NCBI GenBank assembly: GCA_900128395.1
Contig: LT649436.1
Span: forward strand, 1-26,322
Direction: 5' to 3'
From: Stramenopiles sp. TOSAG23-2
Taxonomy: Eukaryota > Sar
Length of the DNA stretch: 26,322 bases
Below the pieces are notes generated by a model. That model saw only the letters and a program-made list of their open reading frames with translations, made no database searches and was not told the DNA's origin. The number at the start of each line of letters is the position of its first letter. Position 1 is the first letter of the stretch. The position numbers and the translations under genes were made by a program. Shown one piece after another: positions 4,005 through 26,322 of the stretch.

Positions 4005-7000
4005 TCTTCTTTTTTTTCTTCAAACTACCCGAACCATCGAGTTTAGGCAATTTGCCACTATTTTTCTTCCTACTTGATGATGTCGCTGGATTTAAAATAT
4101 TAAAATTACTTTTTGCTTTGAGTTGAATCGCACGTTTAGCTAATAATCTATGTTCATTATCATCCAGCACTGCAACAGAAAGTGCTTTAGCTTGATACGG
4201 TTTTAACATTGTTTTTATTTCAGCATTATTTTTTTTTACTAAATCAATTGCTAGTTTGGCTTTATGATTTGGAGTTGCTAGTAGGTGATAAAAATCCGAC
4301 ATATCTGTATATTTCAAAAATTGTCTAACTGTACGTCTATATCCAGCACGAACAGCAATATGCAAAGCGGTATCACCATGTGCGTCTTTGATACACATAG
4401 TTGCCCCATGATCAAGTAACATTGCGATCATATCTGGTCTATCAACAGATGCAGCTATATGTAACAATGCTGTTTTATTTATTTTGTTGTCTATTAGATC
4501 TGGATTTGCACGCATTTGTAATAAATATTGTAATATATTGATTTTTCCAAATAAAACCGCATTTCCTGGCATCGTTTCCCCCGTTTCAGGGCATTTATCA
4601 TTGATTGTAAATTGCTTTTTTTCTTGATAAAGTTGCCGTTCCATTTCACCTTGTAACAATTCGCGGAATATAGTTGGTGTGATGTCTAATCGTATTGCTT
4701 TCCATGGTGATGAAATATCTCGTGCTTTTTTTATTATAGCATTGTTACGTTTAATAGTTGCTTCTTTTAGTTTTTCTTTCAACTTATTTTTTTCCTCTAC
4801 TGACATTTTAATTTTATTTTCTTGTTCAATTACTTTTTTTTCCTTTCCAATAACCCATTTGTCTTGACACATAAGTACAAATGCTTCATGTTTTGCTTTT
4901 TTTTCAGCTCGTATTTTTGTTAACAATATGTACGATCTTTGTTTTGCCTCTTCTTTTTTTTCCTTTCCAATAACCCATTTGTCTTGACACATAAGTACAA
5001 ATGCTTCATGTTTTGCTTTTTTTTCAGCTCGTATTTTTGTTAACAATATGTACGATCTTTGTTTTGCCTCTTCTTGCCTCATTCTTAATAATTCCACTTG
5101 GCTAATACGCTTATCCATCAACTCCCCAGAAACTTGCATAAATGAATTCGTTACATATACAGCTTGATATACTTTTTTAATAACTTGTCTCAATGTCTTT
5201 GCAAATACTGCATAGTTTCCTTGAAATTTTCTACGTTTTCTTAATTTTGTCAATGCATATTTAGTTTCACCCATTGATTGGAAGCTTAGGACTGCGTGTT
5301 TTGCTTTATCAACTTCTGTACGCACACCTAATAATGATTCATCCGTATCATCTAATCCAGGGGTTTGTAATTTATATATGTCTAAATTTATTAAATCACG
5401 AGGACTGCGTGTTTTGCTTTATCAACTTCTGTACGCACACCTAATAATGATTCATCCGTATCATCTAATCCAGGGGTTTGTAATTTATATATGTCTAAAT
5501 TTATTAAATCACGTAAACGATTACGAATAATGCGAAACATGTCCATTTCCTCGTTAATAACAATTGGAATTGCATTTTCTACTTGATCCGTAAACATTGT
5601 TATTACATTTTTTACTTCATCTACTTCCTCATCATTGACGTTATTTCCTGTATTTTTTTCTAAATTTCTATATTTAACTTTGATATCTTCGAGTAAAAAT
5701 TTCAAATCAAATATCATAGAACGAGCTCTTACGCTTTTTCTGGTGTATCGATGGCGATACATTTCAGAAAAGTCACGTACAGCGCTTTGGAATGCATTGT
5801 ACATTTCATTTTCTTCTAAGTTTTCCTCTGGGTTGAAAATTAATGGCATTGTAATTGGGAATTTTCTTACAAGAAATTTGTCGTTATGCCTATTGCAACG
5901 AGATTGAAATGCACGAAATGCTGCTTGTATTTTTATAGCAGCAGAAAATTGTTTATTGCTTCCTCCTGGGGTATAATTATCAGGCATTTCATATTTTACT
6001 TCGCCAACAATCGGTTTATAATAATACACTTTCTTCTTGAATGGATCATATGCTTTAATCCAACGATTCATATCCGTGCGCATTTCCATCGGGCGCTTCC
6101 ATATTACAGCATTAGTTTCAGTATTGTGAAAGTATTTTCGACGTACTTGTGGATCAAATGCTTCGACCCAGACTTGTTTCGGTGCTATTTGCAATTTTTT
6201 CCCTCGTTTCCTTCGTATTTTTCGTTTTGCAATAAATATACGTACCATACGCTGAATCTTTTGAGCACTTTGACTACGTACATATGGTGCAGGTGGTGCC
6301 CAAAGTCTTTCCTCAACTCTATAGTCTAAACCAAAATCAAATGGTTGTTTCCACTTAATTTTACTACTGAAATTGTTGTAATAAAAAAAATTATGTGTAT
6401 CTACATCGTATAATCTTTCCCATTGCGACCAGTCTGATAAATATGTTGTTTTTTTCTTTTCAATAATTTGATCTTCATTTGCACCAGTTGGTTGTTTGGT
6501 CTTTTTTTTTGCATTTTCTCTCATTTGATTAACAATCTCTGGGATTTCAGATGCATCTTGTCCATCCTCATTCATTACACCAAGACACTGCATTGTTACC
6601 GTTCCTGAGATACTTTTATCTTTCCCTATTTTATCGTCCTCTGGCCTTAAATTATATATTTTCGGTGTTCGAGTTAATAAAAATTCTAATAATTCTAATC
6701 CTTGTAATTTCAATTGCCCGAGAAAATCATGATCTCCAACTTTATCATAATCGTAGACTATTGTTTTTATTTCTCCACTACCCAAATTTGCAATGTTACC
6801 ATCAGCAATAGGTATTTCAAAGTTTGTTTCCCAAATTGGGTTTAGATTCTTTTTTATAATTTCCGTTTTACCATGCATAGTATCATTGAAATATAATGCT
6901 GCATATGCATCGCTTTTTCCAAACATATCTGCTTTCTTCAAGTCTTTTGCACGTATTAACCGTATTATAACCATATTTTTTTTATCTTTCATTGTTAAAT

Positions 7001-18260: not shown

Positions 18261-21140
18261 CTACACTCTCTCCCTCCAAAACTCTTTCCCCCTACACAGT
18301 ACCGAACCATTTATCTTTATCTGCATGGATATAATAATTTCTTGCTCCCCATCATCCTTTTTTCTACTGTAACTTTTGCCTGCTGAACTTGGTACAACGC
18401 ATTGAGCATGTATAATTTTCATTGATTCTGGAATTTTAACTTGCATATTTATTGTTTCATTTTCTTTTCCAGATAAAATCAATATTAAATCAGTGGAATT
18501 ACTTATCAATTTCATTATACGAGAATTAGATACTGGTATAAATTTATTTGCTTCTCCTAATAAAATCCAATTACCATTTAAAATTGGGGCGATTAAAACA
18601 TATGTTGCTTCCGTTCCTAATGGTTCTTTCCAATTTGCTGATAATATAGATAGCGAATCTTTATCGTCATTAAATGGTAGAAGAGACATTTCATTAGTTT
18701 GCTGAAATGGCCGATCACCAGACCAAAAATATGCCACATAGTTACCATGATGATTCTTCAGTTCATATTTGTTTGTACTATTGGTGGATGATGTCGTTCG
18801 TAGGATACCAACATCGTTTGGAGATAATTTAAATTCAGTATTATTAATTATGCTTACATACCGCCATACGTAATCATTGTTTATTACAGTCATTGCAACG
18901 GATGTTTCGCCAACTGATGTGTCTCCAAGCCAAACACGATCTATATACATAGCCGGAATAGATGGTTTTAATAATTTACCATTTTCATTACAACTCATCA
19001 TAAGAAGTACACGATCGGCATCACCTATTGGCCCACCCGGAGCAAAACCACCTCCACTTAATGCAGATACCAATGCTTGTGTAAATGGTAAAGACTCGTA
19101 TCCACCATAATCCTCCGCAAATGAATTTTTGACACGTGAGGATGAGTTGGAATAAAATGTATCTTTAAATGGCCACAATCCTAGAGACCAAAGGAGTGTA
19201 CTTTCACCACCAAAGCCTTTCCAATTATCAAATGGAAATCCATGTGAATTGTGACGTAAATGGCTATCCGTAGAGCCACGTCCATGCGTCATGGCTATAT
19301 GATTGACAGAATGCATCAATACATTTGGAAAAGACATGCATAACATAATACTCACATTATTTTTATAAGCAGATGTACCAAGGCCATCTAGATATTGCTC
19401 GGCTACATTTACATCGGTCACCATATCAAGTATACTATTTTTTGCAATTGAGCGATTACGTTCACCTGGTTTACATTCTGTTCCACCACAATTTGGAACG
19501 CTTGCATCACCTCCTAATACTACATCTAGGACATGATCCATTTTCAAAACAGACATACTCCATTCATTATTGGATTGAAATATATGGTCAAAAGCAGGAT
19601 TTGTTTCACTATTATTATTATTATTATTTAGACCAATGAGCACCAAATTCTATTCCCAATTTTTTTTGAAAGGTTTTTAATGTCTCTGGAAATATTAAGC
19701 CAACTTGTTTTGGAATATCTTCAAAATACAATGAATATGGTTCATTGTCCCCATGATTATTATATGCATGCCACCATGAATCAATTAAAAACCAATTGTA
19801 TGGTATTTTTTTTTCTATTGCATCTTGGTGAATGAGATACAAATTATCTTGATATGTATGACAATCATTGTCTTTTCCAGATGATGGTGGACAACCCCAT
19901 CCAATAGAATTATTAACGCAGTCACATGGATTGTAATGATAAATTCCGGTAGTGGAATATCCTAACTTTGAAATCCAAACATTTGAATTAGGCAATGTCC
20001 GCTGATTTTTACCATAACTTTTTTGAATCAATATATCTCCCCATTGTGAGAAACTCTGAGCAATTCTACCTATATGTTGATTGGTAATTTCTATATTTTC
20101 CAATATTTGTTTTGTTTTTTTTAACGATGTTGTACTTAGAACAAATTCAATTGTATAATTGCGTGGAATATTTTCAATTAATCCACCTACCCCAAATCCT
20201 AATAGATTAACTTGATTATTATCTTTAATAATATTAGACATTCCAACCATGTGATGCGTTAACGTGGACATGATGATTACATTATCAATTTTGTTATTAT
20301 TACTACTATTCTCATCTTCTTTGCCGAAAAGAGCTACAGGCCCACCAAGATACCCTCCTTTATATGCATCTGGCCATTTGCCATATAGCGTTGATTTTGC
20401 TGCATTTTGCCCTAAAAATGTTGCAACATGTACATGATTATTATTAACATTAGTAGTAGTAGTAGTACTTGTCTCTATCACACGAAAAGATGGAAAAATT
20501 GTTGATGGAATATCAATATCTCTTTGGTCATTAATATAAGTATCATGTGTAAGTCCGTATGGAAAATATTGCTCGAATGTTATAAACACATTTGGTAATA
20601 GTTTCTGGTTGTTGTAACATTGAAATGATGTTATCCATACGTTATTTTTGTTTGTACCCCATGTCCAGTAAAGGGATATTTTTTTATGATAATCAAATAT
20701 TTCAATATTATTATTATTTTTATTTATTATTGTTGTAACATTTTGCAAGTTTAACTTGTATTTTCCATTATTTGTGTTATCATACCATATGTTGTTGTGT
20801 AATATGCGATATGAACTACTGTACAACATATTCAAATTTGATGTAGGGTTCAAATATATTGTATAATTACCAAGTTGATCATCTATAATAATTTTTTGTG
20901 CTGATGGTGTTATTGAATCATTTATTTTATTATTATTGAAGTTACAAATAATATCTTTTGAATGTACATTACATATTGTTATTATAAATGTAATTATTAG
21001 AAACGTCCATGTATATTGTTGTTTCTTTCATTTATTTTATTATTATTGAAGTTACAAATAATATCTTTTGAATGTACATTACATATTGTTATTATAAATG
21101 TAATTATTAGAAACGTCCATGTATATTGTTGTTTCTGCAT
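18261..21140 (-). CDS. Secreted glycoside-hydrolase-like protein, frame broken twice
   Basis: The likely start is ATG 21140, giving MQKQQYTWTF followed by a hydrophobic signal peptide. A 110-base tandem duplication (20918-21136) then shifts the frame, and the main frame reopens at once and runs to 19624 (ends FGAHWSK*). One surplus base at the AAT repeat (19610-19626) moves the rest into another frame to the stop at 18261. With both corrected the length is about 922 residues. An N-terminal beta-rich half (WTWGTNKNNVW) precedes a barrel-like segment: NWFLIDSWWHAY, FPETLKTFQKKLGIEFGAHW, then VLKMDHVLD with an Asp at 19536-19538. The LK-x-D pattern resembles the nucleophile strand of clan GH-D (families 27 and 36, alpha-galactosidases). 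This is inference from motif and order only; the substrate is unknown. It may be a pseudogene, or intact with assembly errors. Confidence 0.55.
20918..21136. repeat. Tandem 110-bp exact duplication over a signal-peptide region
   Basis: 20918-21026 and 21028-21136 are identical over 109 bases with one base between, for a period of 110. The unit contains most of the signal peptide of the glycosidase-like gene. Reading from ATG 21140 through the first copy into the second shifts frame and soon reaches a stop. Confidence 0.97.
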
Positions 21141-21762
21141 GTTTCAACGTTTCTTATTATTATCGTTTGTTTTAATTTTTTGATCTTGTTGGTTTTATGT
21201 AATATTTCTCTTTATTATTTGCCTCACTTCTTTAAAAAATATACACGTCGTTGTTCTATATCTTTATTAGAATTAATTATATATTATTTTGAATGTGTAC
21301 CAGGTAGTGCACCCTAGAGTATGTATTAATAATAATATTATAATAAAAAAAAAGAAATTAATACTGGCCATAGTTATAGTGCAAAGTTACTCTGGACACC
21401 AGAGATTTTCCTTGCCAGTACCCTGTAGGTCCTTGCCTTTCACACGGCACTTGGCATCAAAATTGAAATTAATTCAGGGGGGAGGGGGGGGTAAAAAATA
21501 TTTCAGCAAAAAAAATCAAAAAAGTCTTCAAGATATTTCCTGGATTTTTTTCATGTCATACTTTGTTGTACTATTAATAATATTAATATGCAGTACTCAA
21601 GCGAATAATAGGATCGGATCCTCTCTACCATAGTTGTTATATAGTGGGAATGTTTCTACACAAGATGCATTTTGTATTAGTCACTTCAAAATTTCATTTA
21701 CACATTCACCAAAAAGAAAAAACAACTCGAGTAATAACAATATTTAAAGAGATATAAAAATC
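21141..21762. other. Spacer with small putative ORFs at the edge of the accessory region
   Basis: The left part is AT-rich and should be the promoter of the glycosidase-like gene. A G-rich homopurine tract (G6AG8) lies at about 21477-21491. Two very short frames look more protein-like than their surroundings. On the minus strand, 21387-21458 is GC-richer and reads DAKCRVKGKDLQGTG..WCPE before a stop. On the plus strand, 21553-21633 reads MSYFVVLLIILICSTQA, like a signal peptide, then nine residues. Neither can be called a gene from sequence alone. Confidence 0.35.
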
Positions 21763-22176
21763 ATGAAAGCCTCCCTCACAGTCCTACTTTTAGTCGCTGC
21801 CACAGTTCTAATTGGTGTGCCGACTGCCTATGGTAATAATTGCCAGCGGTGCTTAGCGTACAATTATAATAATTACAACGCGTGTAGTTATTTCTGCAGA
21901 AGAAGATTGAGTGAAACAGACGAGGACGTCGTGTCGCCTACCTCATCTCGACGACGACTTAATAATTGCCAGCGGTGCTTAGCGTACAATTATAATAATT
22001 ACAACGCGTGTGGTTACTTCTGCAAAAGAAGATTGAGCGAATCAGACGAGGACGAAACGTTAGCGCTGGATGAGGACGAGATGGTGTTTACCAAATCCCG
22101 ACGACTTAATTATCAATGCCAGCTATGCAAAGTGCGAAATCCTGGATATCATTCAGCGTGTAGTTGGGTCTGCTAA
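21763..22176 (+). CDS. Secreted prepropeptide with three Cys-rich modules
   Basis: 137 residues, with a clear signal peptide at 1-24 (cleavage after AYG). Three modules share the exact spacing C-x2-C-x10-C-x3-C: Cys27/30/41/45, Cys69/72/83/87 and Cys119/122/133/137, with the last Cys being the C-terminal residue. Modules 1 and 2 are nearly identical (CQRCLAYNYNNYNAC) and repeat every 126 bases; module 3 is divergent (CQLCKVRNPGYHSAC). They are separated by basic sites (RRRL, KRRL, SRRL) followed by acidic linkers (SETDED, SESDEDE), which suggests proteolytic release of peptides of about 20 residues with two disulfides each. Codons are GC-richer than in neighbouring genes, implying high expression or foreign origin. 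Role unknown: antimicrobial, signalling or structural peptides are all possible. An AT-rich TATA-like stretch (tatttaaagagatataaaa) precedes the ATG. Confidence 0.75.
   Translation: MKASLTVLLLVAATVLIGVPTAYGNNCQRCLAYNYNNYNACSYFCRRRLSETDEDVVSPTSSRRRLNNCQRCLAYNYNNYNACGYFCKRRLSESDEDETLALDEDEMVFTKSRRLNYQCQLCKVRNPGYHSACSWVC
21835..22055 (+). repeat. Recent 126-bp internal repeat within the Cys-rich peptide gene
   Basis: About 21835-21928 and 21961-22054 differ at only around five positions, two of them synonymous. Unlike the exact duplications elsewhere in the window, these copies have diverged, so this is a genuine evolutionary duplication. Confidence 0.9.
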
Positions 22177-22461
22177 AGAAGAATGCTGAGAATGACCCAG
22201 TCTAACCTCTAAGAAGGAAGAAGAAAGGTTTTGGAGAGATAACACATACCCAGGCGAAACAGCACGATGAGAAAAACTGTGCATTACAAAAGATATTGTG
22301 TGCGTAATAATAACTCGTACGAGTATGCATAATCCATATTATCAATCTAGTGTATTCATCACACCAGATGTAAAATTAAATTATTATACGAAGTAAAATT
22401 TAATTTAAACGCATAATTTACGACTCCATGTGTCTCCATTTTTATTTAAAACATGACGTTT

Positions 22462-22860
22462 TCAATAATATTCATTTAATAAATCATTGAAACTTTCTTT
22501 ATTTCTTTCAATTCCAACTTTTACTTTCACTTTACCTCCATCTAAACTCCAAAGTTCATGCGATATACTTGATAAGAAGCTTTGATTATGACTAACTAAT
22601 AAAACTGCACCTTGAAAATCGTTCAATCCAATAGCTAATGCACGCAAACTATCCATATCTAAATGATTTGTCGGTTCATCTAATATTAATATATGTGGCT
22701 TTTTCCACATTACCACTGCTAATGCAAGTCTTGCTTTTTGTCCACCGCTTAATAACCGAACTGGTTGCAATGCTAAGTGTCCAGCAAGGCCAAAACTACC
22801 TAAATGTGATCTTGCTTCCATAAGTGATATACCATTTCGCCCAATGAAGATCTGTCCAAT
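22462..22860 (-). pseudogene. C-terminal fragment of an ABCF-type ATPase
   Basis: About 130 codons ending at a stop at 22462. They read SLMEARSHLGSFGLAGHLAL, then the ABC signature LLSGGQKARLALA, Walker B plus D-loop ILILDEPTNHLD, H-loop LLVSHNQSFLS, and the tail LWSLDGGKVKVKV..FNDLLNEYY. This is the end of the second nucleotide-binding domain of a soluble ABCF protein (Gcn20/ABCF3-like), which acts on ribosomes and has no membrane spans. A whole protein would be 500 residues or more. Walker A, Q-loop and the first domain are absent, because the homology stops near 22860, where unrelated plus-strand coding begins. The nominal frame continues to 23022 only through the antisense of that other gene. 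It is truncated by rearrangement or by a misjoin. Confidence 0.8.
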
Positions 22861-22861
22861 T

Positions 22862-23510
22862 GATTGCGACAAAAACCAAAACTGGGTCGTGTCTGTCGAT
22901 TTCAATACTGCAGAAGATGAACTTGGAACTCTTGTTTGTTCGAAAGGAACTGAAGAAGACGCAAAACGCGATGGGGAAAAGATTCCAAATGGGTACACCC
23001 GTACCATTATTGGGTCATTCAATACGGGTGATCACAACAGAATCGCATTGGGTGATCCGTGTGCCTTTTCCAACTCCGACAATTGGTATGACTCCGATTC
23101 TGCGTTGTACAAAATGAAACAATTCGATGGTACTGACGGTGTTTATTTTTCAACAAATCATTGTGACGGAATGTATCCCGTCATTTGTTTGTATGAAAAT
23201 CAAGCAGCACAAATGGCAAACAAGCCGAATTCATTTCGTGTAACCTTTACTCAGCCATGTCATAACGCATTGTGCGACGCGTTGGGGATGCCTTAAAGGT
23301 ATTGGATGGCCTAGAATATTTCGAGGGATTTTTAAAAAACTAAATCTGGTTCAAAGGTGAACTTGCCTCTAAACCATCGCTGCGATCGCGTTTCCGTATC
23401 ATTGAATTGAAAACAGTAGATTGTCCCCCTTCGGTTTTAGAAATTCCTTACGCGGTAGAAACAGCAACAATTCCGGCCAAGAGAATTGCAGGTGCCACTG
23501 GAACAGCGTT
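22862..23510 (+). pseudogene. GC-richer gene remnant, extracellular-domain-like, with frameshift and stop
   Basis: From about 22862 to the stop ending at 23296 the plus strand reads as protein: NWVVSVDFNTAEDELGTLVC, SKGTEEDAKRDGEKIPNGYT, GDPCAFSNSDNWYDSD, FSTNHCDGMYPVICLYE. The W, paired Cys and YPVICLYE ending recall C-type-lectin-like or similar extracellular modules, but this is only a resemblance. After 23296 another frame continues coding-like (LKVLDGLEYFEGFLKN, a stop at about 23340, then SRFRIIELKTVDCPPSVLEI and YAVETATIPAKRIAG) until AT-rich DNA resumes near 23510. There is no credible start: the 5' side is the ABCF fragment on the other strand. It is a decayed or mis-joined piece, possibly of foreign origin given its composition. 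An intron near 23296 is a weaker alternative. Confidence 0.5.
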
Positions 23511-23767
23511 ATATTTTCGTATTTTTTTATATATGATACTGCTATACGTGCATGATTATCATATATTATGACAATATACTAGCAGTTCTTATTACTTTCC
23601 TAATTTTCAAATAATAGATCTTTTGGTTTCTCCCATTGAACTACGTTTGATATCACATTTGATAATATGGTTTACCACTATTTTCATCAATATATTACCT
23701 GGTAAACCCTTAATAAACTCATCTGGTCACATCATCATCTGTTGTTGTGATCTATCTGTTCATTCCT
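23511..23767. other. AT-rich spacer
   Basis: Low-GC DNA between the gene remnant and the foldback element. No gene or RNA was recognised. Confidence 0.5.
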
Positions 23768-24193
23768 AATCGGGTCCATTATCCATAAAAGTGGTGCGCC
23801 TACACAGCACTGGTTATTTGTTCATTGCCAATAACCAGTCCTGTGTACCTGTTAATCCGGAAATCGGTAGGAAAATATCATATATTGAAGTATAATAATT
23901 TGTAATCTAAATCACACAATAAAATATTACCTTAATTTACTGTAGAATTGTCGCTTCTCTCTGTGGCTTTTCATTGAAATTTTGCATCAAAACATCAAAA
24001 CCCAAAACCTCTAAATTGAACTAAATTAAGGTAATATTTTATTGTGTGATTTAGACTACAAATTATTATACTTATCTATATGATATTTTCCTACCGATTT
24101 CCGGATTAACAGGTACACAGGACTGGTTATTCGTAATGAACAAATAACCAGTGCTGTGTAGGCGCACCACTTTTATGGATAATGGACCCGATT
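23768..24193. mobile_element. Foldback/MITE-like element with 172-bp terminal inverted repeats
   Basis: The arms 23768-23939 and 24022-24193 are inverted copies with about 6 mismatches in 172 bases (roughly 96% identity), around an 82-base non-coding centre. The termini read AATCGGGTCC and GGACCCGATT. Each arm contains its own hairpin (left arm 23803-23845: CACAGCACTGGTTATT pairing with AATAACCAGTCCTGTG). There is no transposase frame. A TTCATT sequence occurs close outside both ends, but a target-site duplication cannot be asserted. This structure is typical of non-autonomous DNA transposons. It ends 129 bases before the ATG of the GxGYxYP gene, so it may contribute to that gene's promoter. 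Confidence 0.8.
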
Positions 24194-24322: not shown

Positions 24323-26322
24323 ATGGCATTATCAATACAATGCAGTATTAGAATAATCAGTATTGCGATATACGTACTTACCATTCATACAGTTGCTACA
24401 GCGAAAGCTACTAAAAGTGTTTTTTATAATGTTAGTCATATTATTTCAAATTTGTCATATAACGAGCAATCATTAATATATGCAATTCAAGGAATTGTGA
24501 ATAAAAACAAAGAACCAGAATTGTTTCTAAATACTGGTCATATGGATTTAGATTTTCCAAAATCAGATTTATTGTGGAAAGAATATTTTGAGAAAACACG
24601 AAACATAGAATTTGATACTACCATCGAAACAAATAATTTATGCAGTTTAATTAATCATTTTCAAGACAAATTCAAAAATGGTATTGTTATTTATAATGAA
24701 AGTGATAATTTTACACTTTACCCATCGTTGACACTTGCAGGTTTAAATAGTGTATTGCCAATATCTGATGTAATATATGAAAAGTACTATGATTCATGTT
24801 TACGAAATTTTCCAATCCATTTAAATTTAACCAAAATGGAATTTTCAAATAAATTTGAAATGTATCGTTGGGCAATTGATACGTTATTACCTAATTGCAG
24901 CAAAACAATTTTATTTAATGCAGACAATTATCCGAATGCAGTTGCACAAGCAAAATTTACAACAATTATGTCAGTTGATTATGCAATTTCACAAAGAGCA
25001 TTTATAATGAATTTATGTCCATTATGGAAATGTCAACCAAAATTATGTGGAACAACTAGAAAGGCAACGCCAAAAGATACGGAACTTTTTATTGAAATTA
25101 TAAAAGCATCTGATAAATTAGTTTCTGTGTTTGGTTGGAGTGATCCTGAATACAGTTATACGAACATTACATCCCATGCTGGAGGTGCTGTTTTTTGTTC
25201 ATTTAGCACACCAAATTTATCATATTGGGATGCTATTTCTAAATATTTCAATAACATTACATCCCATGCTGGAGGTGCTGTTTTTTGTTCATTTAGCACA
25301 CCAAATTTATCATATTGGGATGCTATTTCTAAATATTTCAATGTCAAACCATTACCATTACCAATAAAAGACAATGATCTTCAACATATGTTAGATGCAT
25401 CTAAAACATATTTAATATTTGAAACAAATGAAGGCGACACGCCAAGGATATTGTCTTCACAATTTACCAGTGCTTGGGTTTCACCAAATCGTGGCAGCGT
25501 TCCAATTGCATGGGCAATCGATCCATACCTTGGTATATTATTTCCAGAGTTGTACAATTATTATGCAAATAATACTACAAGAAATGATACATTTATAAAT
25601 GGTGTCGTAGGTGCTGGTTATGCATATATTAGTAGTTTAGGAGAGAATGCACAGGTTTATGAAAAACGGAGTGGGAAAATTATGCAAATGCTTGGTCCAA
25701 ATGTTGTAGATGTAAGTAAATTTCGATTCCTATACTATTAAAGACCTATATAGTATACAGCCCTGGATATATCCTCCCTCTCTAACAATACATCCCTCTC
25801 TTTCATTTAAATACGTTTACAGGTCGGTGTCCCAATGAATAAATGGCCCGCAACACCTATTGATTTAATAGAAGAATATGTTGTTCATGCTAGAAATACA
25901 GGAAATAACGATGATAAAACAACGATAACGTCACCAGAGGCATTTGTGAATGCATGTGGCACTACATATGGACAAGATATTAATATTTGTTTAAATGATG
26001 GTACCCCTGTTATCAATTCAGTGTGTGTCGGTCCAAAAAATAATGATACAACCGATGGACATTATTTATATTATTATAGAGATCATTTAAATAAAACAGA
26101 TCCTGTACATGATTTTGTCGAGAAAGTGAAATGGGCATCAAATCATTATAAATCAAAAGATCAAGCCTTGTTTTTATTGGCATATGGAGGTTTAGGATTA
26201 TATGGAGGACATAATGATATATTCATATTTATTCAAAATGTTATGAGGGAGCTTGGGGAGGATTATATTGTCATTGGTGCTCAAGAGATGGTGAGGTTAG
26301 CGAAGGAGCAATGTAAAAAAAA
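24323..26322 (+). CDS. Secreted GxGYxYP-family protein (putative carbohydrate-active), C-terminus at window edge
   Basis: Exon 1 (24323-25711, 463 residues) and exon 2 (25823 to the right edge, 166 codons) join in phase 0. A signal peptide occupies 1-27. The N-terminal region has the family pattern ISNLSYNEQSLIYAIQGIVN with PELFLN. The signature appears at 430-435 as G-A-G-Y-A-Y, followed by Ile where Pro is usual. After the splice the reading is GPNVVD|VGVPMNKWPATPIDL. The GxGYxYP family is a putative glycoside-hydrolase group known mainly from bacteria; its enzymatic activity is inferred from domain context, not seen here. Residues 281-310 are repeated exactly as 311-340. Near the edge VIGAQEMVRLAKEQC looks like the last helix, so little may be missing. 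Confidence 0.75.
25163..25342. repeat. Tandem 90-bp exact duplication inside the GxGYxYP gene
   Basis: 25163-25252 and 25253-25342 are identical. The unit encodes 30 residues (NITSHAGGAVF to SKYFN) twice and keeps frame. A duplication inside a conserved enzyme fold would be expected to harm function if real. Confidence 0.97.
25712..25822 (+). other. Spliceosomal intron (111 bp)
   Basis: It begins GTAAGTAAAT and ends TTACAG. Reading through gives a TAA at 25739-25741, while removal continues the GxGYxYP protein in frame to the window edge. Pyrimidine-rich CCTCCCTCTC and CATCCCTCTCTTTC stretches precede the acceptor. Confidence 0.9.

Follow-up and report, generated by a model that had tools for sequence, protein, structure and literature searches.

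In this work, a complete open reading frame of 137 codons followed by a stop was found at positions 21763–22176 on the forward strand of the window, i.e., the whole stretch of 26,322 nt that was analyzed (contig LT649436.1 of Stramenopiles sp. TOSAG23-2). Both its start and its end are kept in three relatives (P0001–P0003). The first part, a signal peptide of 24 aa (21763–21834; GRAVY 1.62), ends with A-Y-G before N-N, where we take the predicted cleavage site to lie by the –3/–1 rule. It is followed by Cys module 1 (21835–21897, 21 aa), with two, ten, and three residues between its cysteines, and by the first RRRL site (21898–21909), in which RRLSE fits the RxLxE form of the motif described in PMC6212819 and PMC4764566. 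Next come acidic spacer 1 (21910–21948, 13 aa, calculated charge –4.5), a second RRRL site (21949–21960) with N-N-C directly behind it, and Cys module 2 (21961–22023, 21 aa). The third site, KRRL (22024–22035), also fits RxLxE in the window (RRLSE), whereas RRLSK at this site in P0003 does not, so that the RxLxE form is not fixed. Acidic spacer 2 (22036–22098, 21 aa, calculated charge –8.5) leads to an RRL site (22099–22107) with N-Y-Q-C at once after it, and Cys module 3 (22108–22173, 22 aa) ends the protein. RRL ends every module or spacer except module 3 (RRRL at residues 46–49 and 63–66, KRRL at 88–91, RRL at 113–115), and the pattern C-x2-C-x10-C-x3-C begins at residues 27, 69, and 119. 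In 200,000 shuffles of the mature part (113 residues), four RRL never occurred and at least three occurred in 16 shuffles; three such Cys modules never arose either. The signal peptide, the three Cys modules, and the acidic linkers claimed in an earlier inspection of the letters (the sequence-only reading) were thus confirmed. The modules of 21–22 residues are nearly neutral to mildly basic, modules 1 and 2 being rich in Asn and Tyr, and the spacers begin with S-E-T/S-D-E-D in the window copy. Judged from these features, the predicted product is a secreted modular precursor of the RRL-bounded multi-peptide type with very few known relatives.

Modules 1 and 2 lie in two 95-nt copies that are 95% identical and 126 nt apart, in agreement with the recent duplication claimed before. 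The copied stretch consists of the module plus the start of the spacer. A third copy (22156–22185, 80% over 30 nt) crosses the stop codon, and the stop codon with the following bases (22174–22185) resembles a remnant of the RRRL repeat. Because the similarity runs across the stop, the repeat unit may once have continued past the present end, and the precursor may have been shortened at its present stop codon. The spacing of the three modules is identical in the window copy, as had been noticed, but not across the family, since module 1 of P0003 has x8. Likewise, the YNYNNYN core is present in the window, while module 1 of P0001 reads YNHNNYN. An AlphaFold model has a helix-turn-helix in each module, although it is a poor one, with a mean pLDDT of 49. 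The modeled helix-turn-helix would suit a two-disulfide hairpin.

About 5.8 billion proteins were searched with E up to 10, and only P0001–P0003, all of them environmental sequences, were recovered; a second search using the alignment gave no further relative. These searches reach targets that share exact 5-residue words and have 0.55–1.75 of the query length. No Pfam family was over its curated cut-off among four weak matches up to E 10, and membership of any Pfam family was rejected, the best match being DUF6472 with 18.6 bits vs a cut-off of 27. PDB sequences gave no match better than E 0.3, tblastn against phages gave no match, and none of 19 pattern matches in viral contigs was confirmed. 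Among the papers listed for such precursors in protists, none was on this family, as judged by the title or the opening of the abstract. The Pfam, PDB, and large protein searches thus agree with the earlier statement that no known family has this motif. The absence of homologues had been named as a point against that reading, and three were found. The genome itself contains one copy of the gene, and no further modular ORF with C-x2-C-x7-12-C-x3-C was seen when 143 ORFs of 80 aa or more were sampled, where the pattern occurred once more as a single match in the Cys-rich tail of the L050 protein.

The ENA contigs that carry the relatives are short, at most 716, 634, and 784 nt long. P0001 differs from the window by two residues, and P0002 has one module fewer, perhaps because assembly collapsed the two near-identical units. 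P0003 shares 80% identity with the window, and its module 2 is of the module-3 type (15/22 positions identical to module 3 of the window). RRL is kept at each module/spacer border that the relatives possess, with four RRL in P0001 and P0003 and two in the shorter P0002. The identity between the window and P0003 is 23/24 in the signal peptide, 19/21 in spacer 1 and 24/28 in spacer 2 (both with sites), and 22/22 in module 3, which is also identical in P0001 and P0002. On the other hand, it is 13/21 in module 1 and 9/22 in module 2, so the change is gathered in these two modules. From the aligned sequences we infer that this change came partly through module exchange.

The gene lies in an assembly of 17.45 Mb in 793 contigs with eukaryotic gene content (IFT80, DnaJ, a 2OG-Fe(II) oxygenase, C2/WW and ankyrin proteins), in which tubulin-family genes form long uninterrupted frames. 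We take the beta-tubulin to be stramenopile-like and the tubulin not to be fungal. No match to the chlorophyll a/b-binding family was found in the genome, and 18S was not found with one 71-nt probe. At L011, 10 kb with GC 0.389 contain no complete ORF of at least 150 aa; by eye, the start resembles cadherin repeats in one long frame, perhaps of a giant cadherin-like gene. Upstream of the peptide gene, the window contains a partial copy (21388–21425) of a dispersed 48-nt element with two hairpins and a DNA fold z-score of –7.4. A search with the upstream flank gave matches at 22 further places in the genome (L024–L032 are among the loci of the element), and 7/10 copies examined fit the full-length pattern. 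Flanking direct repeats of at least 6 nt were found at 4/7 full-length copies vs 3/42 cross pairs. This pattern points to target-site duplication and so to a tiny mobile element. Downstream, an inverted repeat at 23768–24193 with 172-nt arms, 97% complementary and with copies on many other contigs, is a MITE-like element. Between the two, the C-terminal part of an ABC transporter (Pfam ABC_tran, 22462 to ~22828, reverse strand), which we take to be ABCF-like, adjoins ORF 22844–23296 at ~22823–22829, and this odd junction is ~650 nt downstream of the peptide gene. Eight residues of P0004 (SDIPFRPM) read just across the border. Among eight relatives of the ORF, five (P0005, P0006, P0007, P0008, P0010) are interrupted, as judged by eye, at positions that could hold unspliced introns; the window ORF, P0004, and P0009 read through these positions. 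The region is possibly a processed copy or a chimeric join. Exact tandem duplications occur in the window at 4833–5075, 5288–5513, 20918–21136, and 25163–25342, and also at 11/20 sampled loci. In the window and 20 stretches (226 kb; spacings of 60–259 nt searched, low complexity dropped) there were 35 of them, with spacings of 67–241 nt, and they are most likely unmerged overlaps at assembly joins. One, of 90 nt and in frame (25163–25342), lies within a GxGYxYP putative glycoside hydrolase frame at 24323–25741 on the forward strand.

The GC-richer codons noticed earlier were confirmed: the third-position GC of the gene is 0.467 vs 0.244 (sd 0.035) expected from genome codon usage, higher than in any of the 70 ORFs (150 aa or longer) that were sampled, whose maximum is 0.374. 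The accompanying idea that such codons hint at strong expression fails, because the usage is further from the tubulins than from the genome. The log-likelihood per codon is –1.367 with genome usage (expected –0.964, sd 0.051) and –1.989 with the usage of four tubulin genes (expected –0.745, sd 0.053), and the gene uses GCG, GTC, GTG, and CGA, which the tubulins of this genome nearly avoid. Scored with an order-4 Markov model against 1,300 sampled windows, two windows of 300 bases lying over the gene rank at the 0.8 and 0.3 percentile, and 22051–22350 is at percentile 4.8. More distant windows on either side score in the ordinary range until a second low stretch is reached at 22801–23550 (2.2–7.1). 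This odd composition amid native flanks means either a foreign stretch in native surroundings or selection that keeps unusual codons. The coding stretch looks foreign and may be non-native, through recent horizontal transfer or through DNA of another organism that entered by assembly or amplification, and we give this reading the same weight as its opposite. It agrees with the codon log-likelihoods, the low Markov percentiles, and the third-position GC. The nearby GC-richer stretch 22844–23296 (third-position GC 0.41), which adjoins the truncated ABC-transporter-type gene, and the exact tandem duplications resembling unmerged joins point the same way. However, the upstream flank is typical in composition and holds the dispersed element, a genome repeat lies downstream at 23768–24193, and no exact tandem duplication was found between 21137 and 25162. 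A shared foreign source of the gene and ORF 22844–23296 was unsupported (–1.329 with the usage of that ORF vs –1.259 with that of three window genes). Whether the gene belongs to this organism is thus evenly balanced in our view, and a non-native origin would be compatible with any of the processing mechanisms discussed below.

Entry of the precursor into the ER by its signal peptide, i.e., secretion, is very likely, and its cleavage into pieces is probable. The earlier claim of dibasic processing sites holds in that RR is present at all four sites, but Leu is constant after RR and the modules start right behind this Leu. All six modules of the window and P0003 begin with Asn, directly after either the signal peptide (AYG) or the Leu of RRL, and the sites are therefore better called RRL than dibasic. 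With Asn in the same phase, signal peptidase and an RRL protease would give the same N-terminus. The multi-peptide precursor of the sequence-only reading stands as regards the secreted modular architecture, which is kept in three relatives, and its sites are to be redescribed. RRL is found at 4/4 sites in both the window and P0003, and RxLxE at 2/4 and 1/4, respectively. For ASP5, a protease of the Golgi, cleavage behind the Leu of RRL has been reported even at sites distant from the N-terminus, with perhaps no restriction on position, and plasmepsin V is reported to cut RxL|xE (PMC4764566, PMC6212819). We hypothesize, at slightly less than even confidence and from the sequence pattern, that the secreted precursor would be cut after the Leu of RRL and not after the dibasic pair. 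In the Golgi or later, an RxL-specific protease, most plausibly of the plasmepsin-V/ASP5-like type (A1B), might make these cuts, an assumption that we hold just as tentatively. Before this, once the precursor is in the ER, the cysteines of each module would pair into two disulfides of a small hairpin. The C-terminal R/K-R-R-L tails would be trimmed after the cuts or left on. Three Cys peptides of ~2.5 kDa would be released, together with two acidic ones that may carry phosphate. RRL was seen 7 times in sampled signal-peptide-like ORFs (1.25 expected), four of the 7 being in this gene, and 17 times in other sampled ORFs (7.28 expected). Because of the share of this gene and the excess in the other ORFs, these counts lend RRL processing across the genome no independent support.

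In classical dibasic processing, a Kex2/furin-like convertase would cut after KR/RR and a carboxypeptidase would trim the ends. Every site has RR or KRR, and precursors with KR/RR repeats are described as widespread in fungi (PMC6339444). Such a cut would give modules 2 and 3 an extra Leu that module 1 lacks, and Leu follows RR at all four sites. Kex2 does not need Leu after RR. Moreover, no P_proprotein domain (the P domain of proprotein convertases) matched at E 0.001 in the 17.45 Mb assembly, which may be incomplete, with one candidate scored. This mechanism is accordingly unlikely in our view. For cutting after RRL, five Asp-family matches are present on four contigs, C351 and C309 among them. 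In the two genes examined further, L049 and L050, TAXi_N and TAXi_C are above cut-off, and the general Asp family outscores them in both. Plasmepsin V is the best PDB match of L049 over the whole protease domain (E 9e-19). For L050 it is the third (E 6.6e-15, 2.7 bits below the best, residues 86–224 only), and this protein scores slightly higher to chymosin. Toward the C-terminus of L050 there is, by eye, a hydrophobic stretch, and RRNL/RRYL precede its protease domain. Since A1 aspartic proteases are common, the presence of A1B-like enzymes is weak and circumstantial support for RRL cutting. In L049 (85–2808, reverse strand), one frame joins a GH43-like region, with PDB matches to beta-xylosidase/arabinofuranosidase, to the plasmepsin-V-like protease, either as a real fusion or through an assembly join.

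There is also a small chance that the protein is not cleaved and that its three modules serve together outside the cell, in a structure or at the surface, where disulfides would cross-link the protein and RRL would act in binding or sorting. The near-neutral, Asn/Tyr-rich modules are unlike strongly cationic antimicrobial peptides, and module 3 is invariant across the four copies. In diatom Silicanin-1, an RRL-ending segment is joined to an Asn/Gln-rich, Cys-bearing domain that finally resides in biosilica (PMC5525289). The regular RRL at every border speaks against an uncut protein, as does the varying module number, although the shorter P0002 could be the assembly collapse mentioned above. 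Still less probable, and to us very unlikely, are the acidic spacers as the main products, i.e., silacidin-like phosphopeptides for mineral or extracellular matrix. Their charges and S-E-T/S-D-E-D starts would suit this role, and silacidins are acidic phosphopeptides from a repetitive precursor with RXL at repeat ends (PMC4557024). However, the protein has only two spacers, which are unequal in length, rapid change is seen in the Cys modules instead, and what was duplicated is a module with the start of a spacer. No silicon-transporter family match was over cut-off in the genome, and this lead was dropped, as the single weak match lies in a frame that by eye resembles a short-chain dehydrogenase. 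If the RRL-bounded precursor is cut, its Cys peptides may equally well act, or not act, as free peptides outside the cell. The sequence allows as a first guess a role against other organisms, in defence or competition, which is itself rather doubtful; mating or self-recognition would be the second guess.

We know of no four-Cys hairpin modules in the diatom RXL-processed precursors. In other respects these are close: silaffin Sil1p, silacidin, cingulins, frustulins, and Silicanin-1 combine a signal peptide with RXL at the ends of repeats or segments (PMC4557024, PMC5525289), and the present protein has a signal peptide and four RRL at module/spacer ends. RXL is described at repeat C-termini in frustulins, cingulins, and silacidins, and also in Sil1p, and the protease that removes these motifs was termed yet unknown in a 2017 paper (PMC4557024, PMC5525289). 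The acidic silacidin peptides and the observed or proposed RXL removal (PMC4557024, PMC5525289) resemble the acidic spacers and the predicted cutting here. In contrast to this precursor, the diatom proteins are linked to silica, and the present genome gave no chlorophyll-binding family match. RRL at all four sites agrees with Toxoplasma ASP5 (TEXEL) substrates and RxLxE at two of four with Plasmodium plasmepsin V (PEXEL, RxLxE/Q/D) substrates, secretion being read from the N-terminus. On the other hand, several sites in one small precursor would release peptides here, and the parasite/host export context belongs to TEXEL/PEXEL substrates. Oomycetes possess plasmepsin-V-like proteases (PMC3116508), and those tested on RXLR effectors were described with no or weak activity (PMC11754927). 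Plant alpha-hairpinins likewise have a signal peptide and several four-Cys modules with linkers, and their module number varies between genes (PMC7191063). In fold, the likeness is limited to the weakly modeled helix-turn-helix. The alpha-hairpinin motif is C-x3-C-xn-C-x3-C, and membership was rejected, since the first pair is C-x2-C in all four copies; RRL sites and the absence of a Pfam/PDB match are further differences. Fungal KEX2-processed repeat proteins also are secreted precursors with repeated units between basic sites, and the published pipeline that defines them asks for four or more fragments between KR/RR sites and for three or more occurrences of a motif, with the C-terminal fragment left out (PMC6339444). 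The present protein has four RR-bearing sites, and three modules only if its C-terminal fragment is counted (PMC6339444). It also differs in the constant Leu after RR, in two alternating kinds of unit, and in that no convertase domain was found.

Precursors that yield several secreted peptides are familiar from animals, plants, and fungi, but little known among uncultured protists. If its RRL sites are indeed cut sites, this one would be a compact natural substrate, with four of them (two fitting RxLxE) within 137 residues, and could be used to test the kinship of the diatom RXL protease, the RXLR-cutting activity of oomycetes, and plasmepsin V/ASP5. The contrast between changing Cys modules and fixed flanks also singles out modules 1 and 2 as the region where selection is changing or modules are exchanged. 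It is decidedly improbable, though worth stating, that a free-living heterotrophic flagellate shares the RxL aspartic-protease pathway of malaria parasites, Toxoplasma, and diatoms (where the enzyme is not known) and cuts with it a polyprotein into fast-evolving hairpin peptides. RxL maturation would then be ancient in the secretory system of the wider lineage and would have produced peptide weapons or signals before it was recruited for export or silica.
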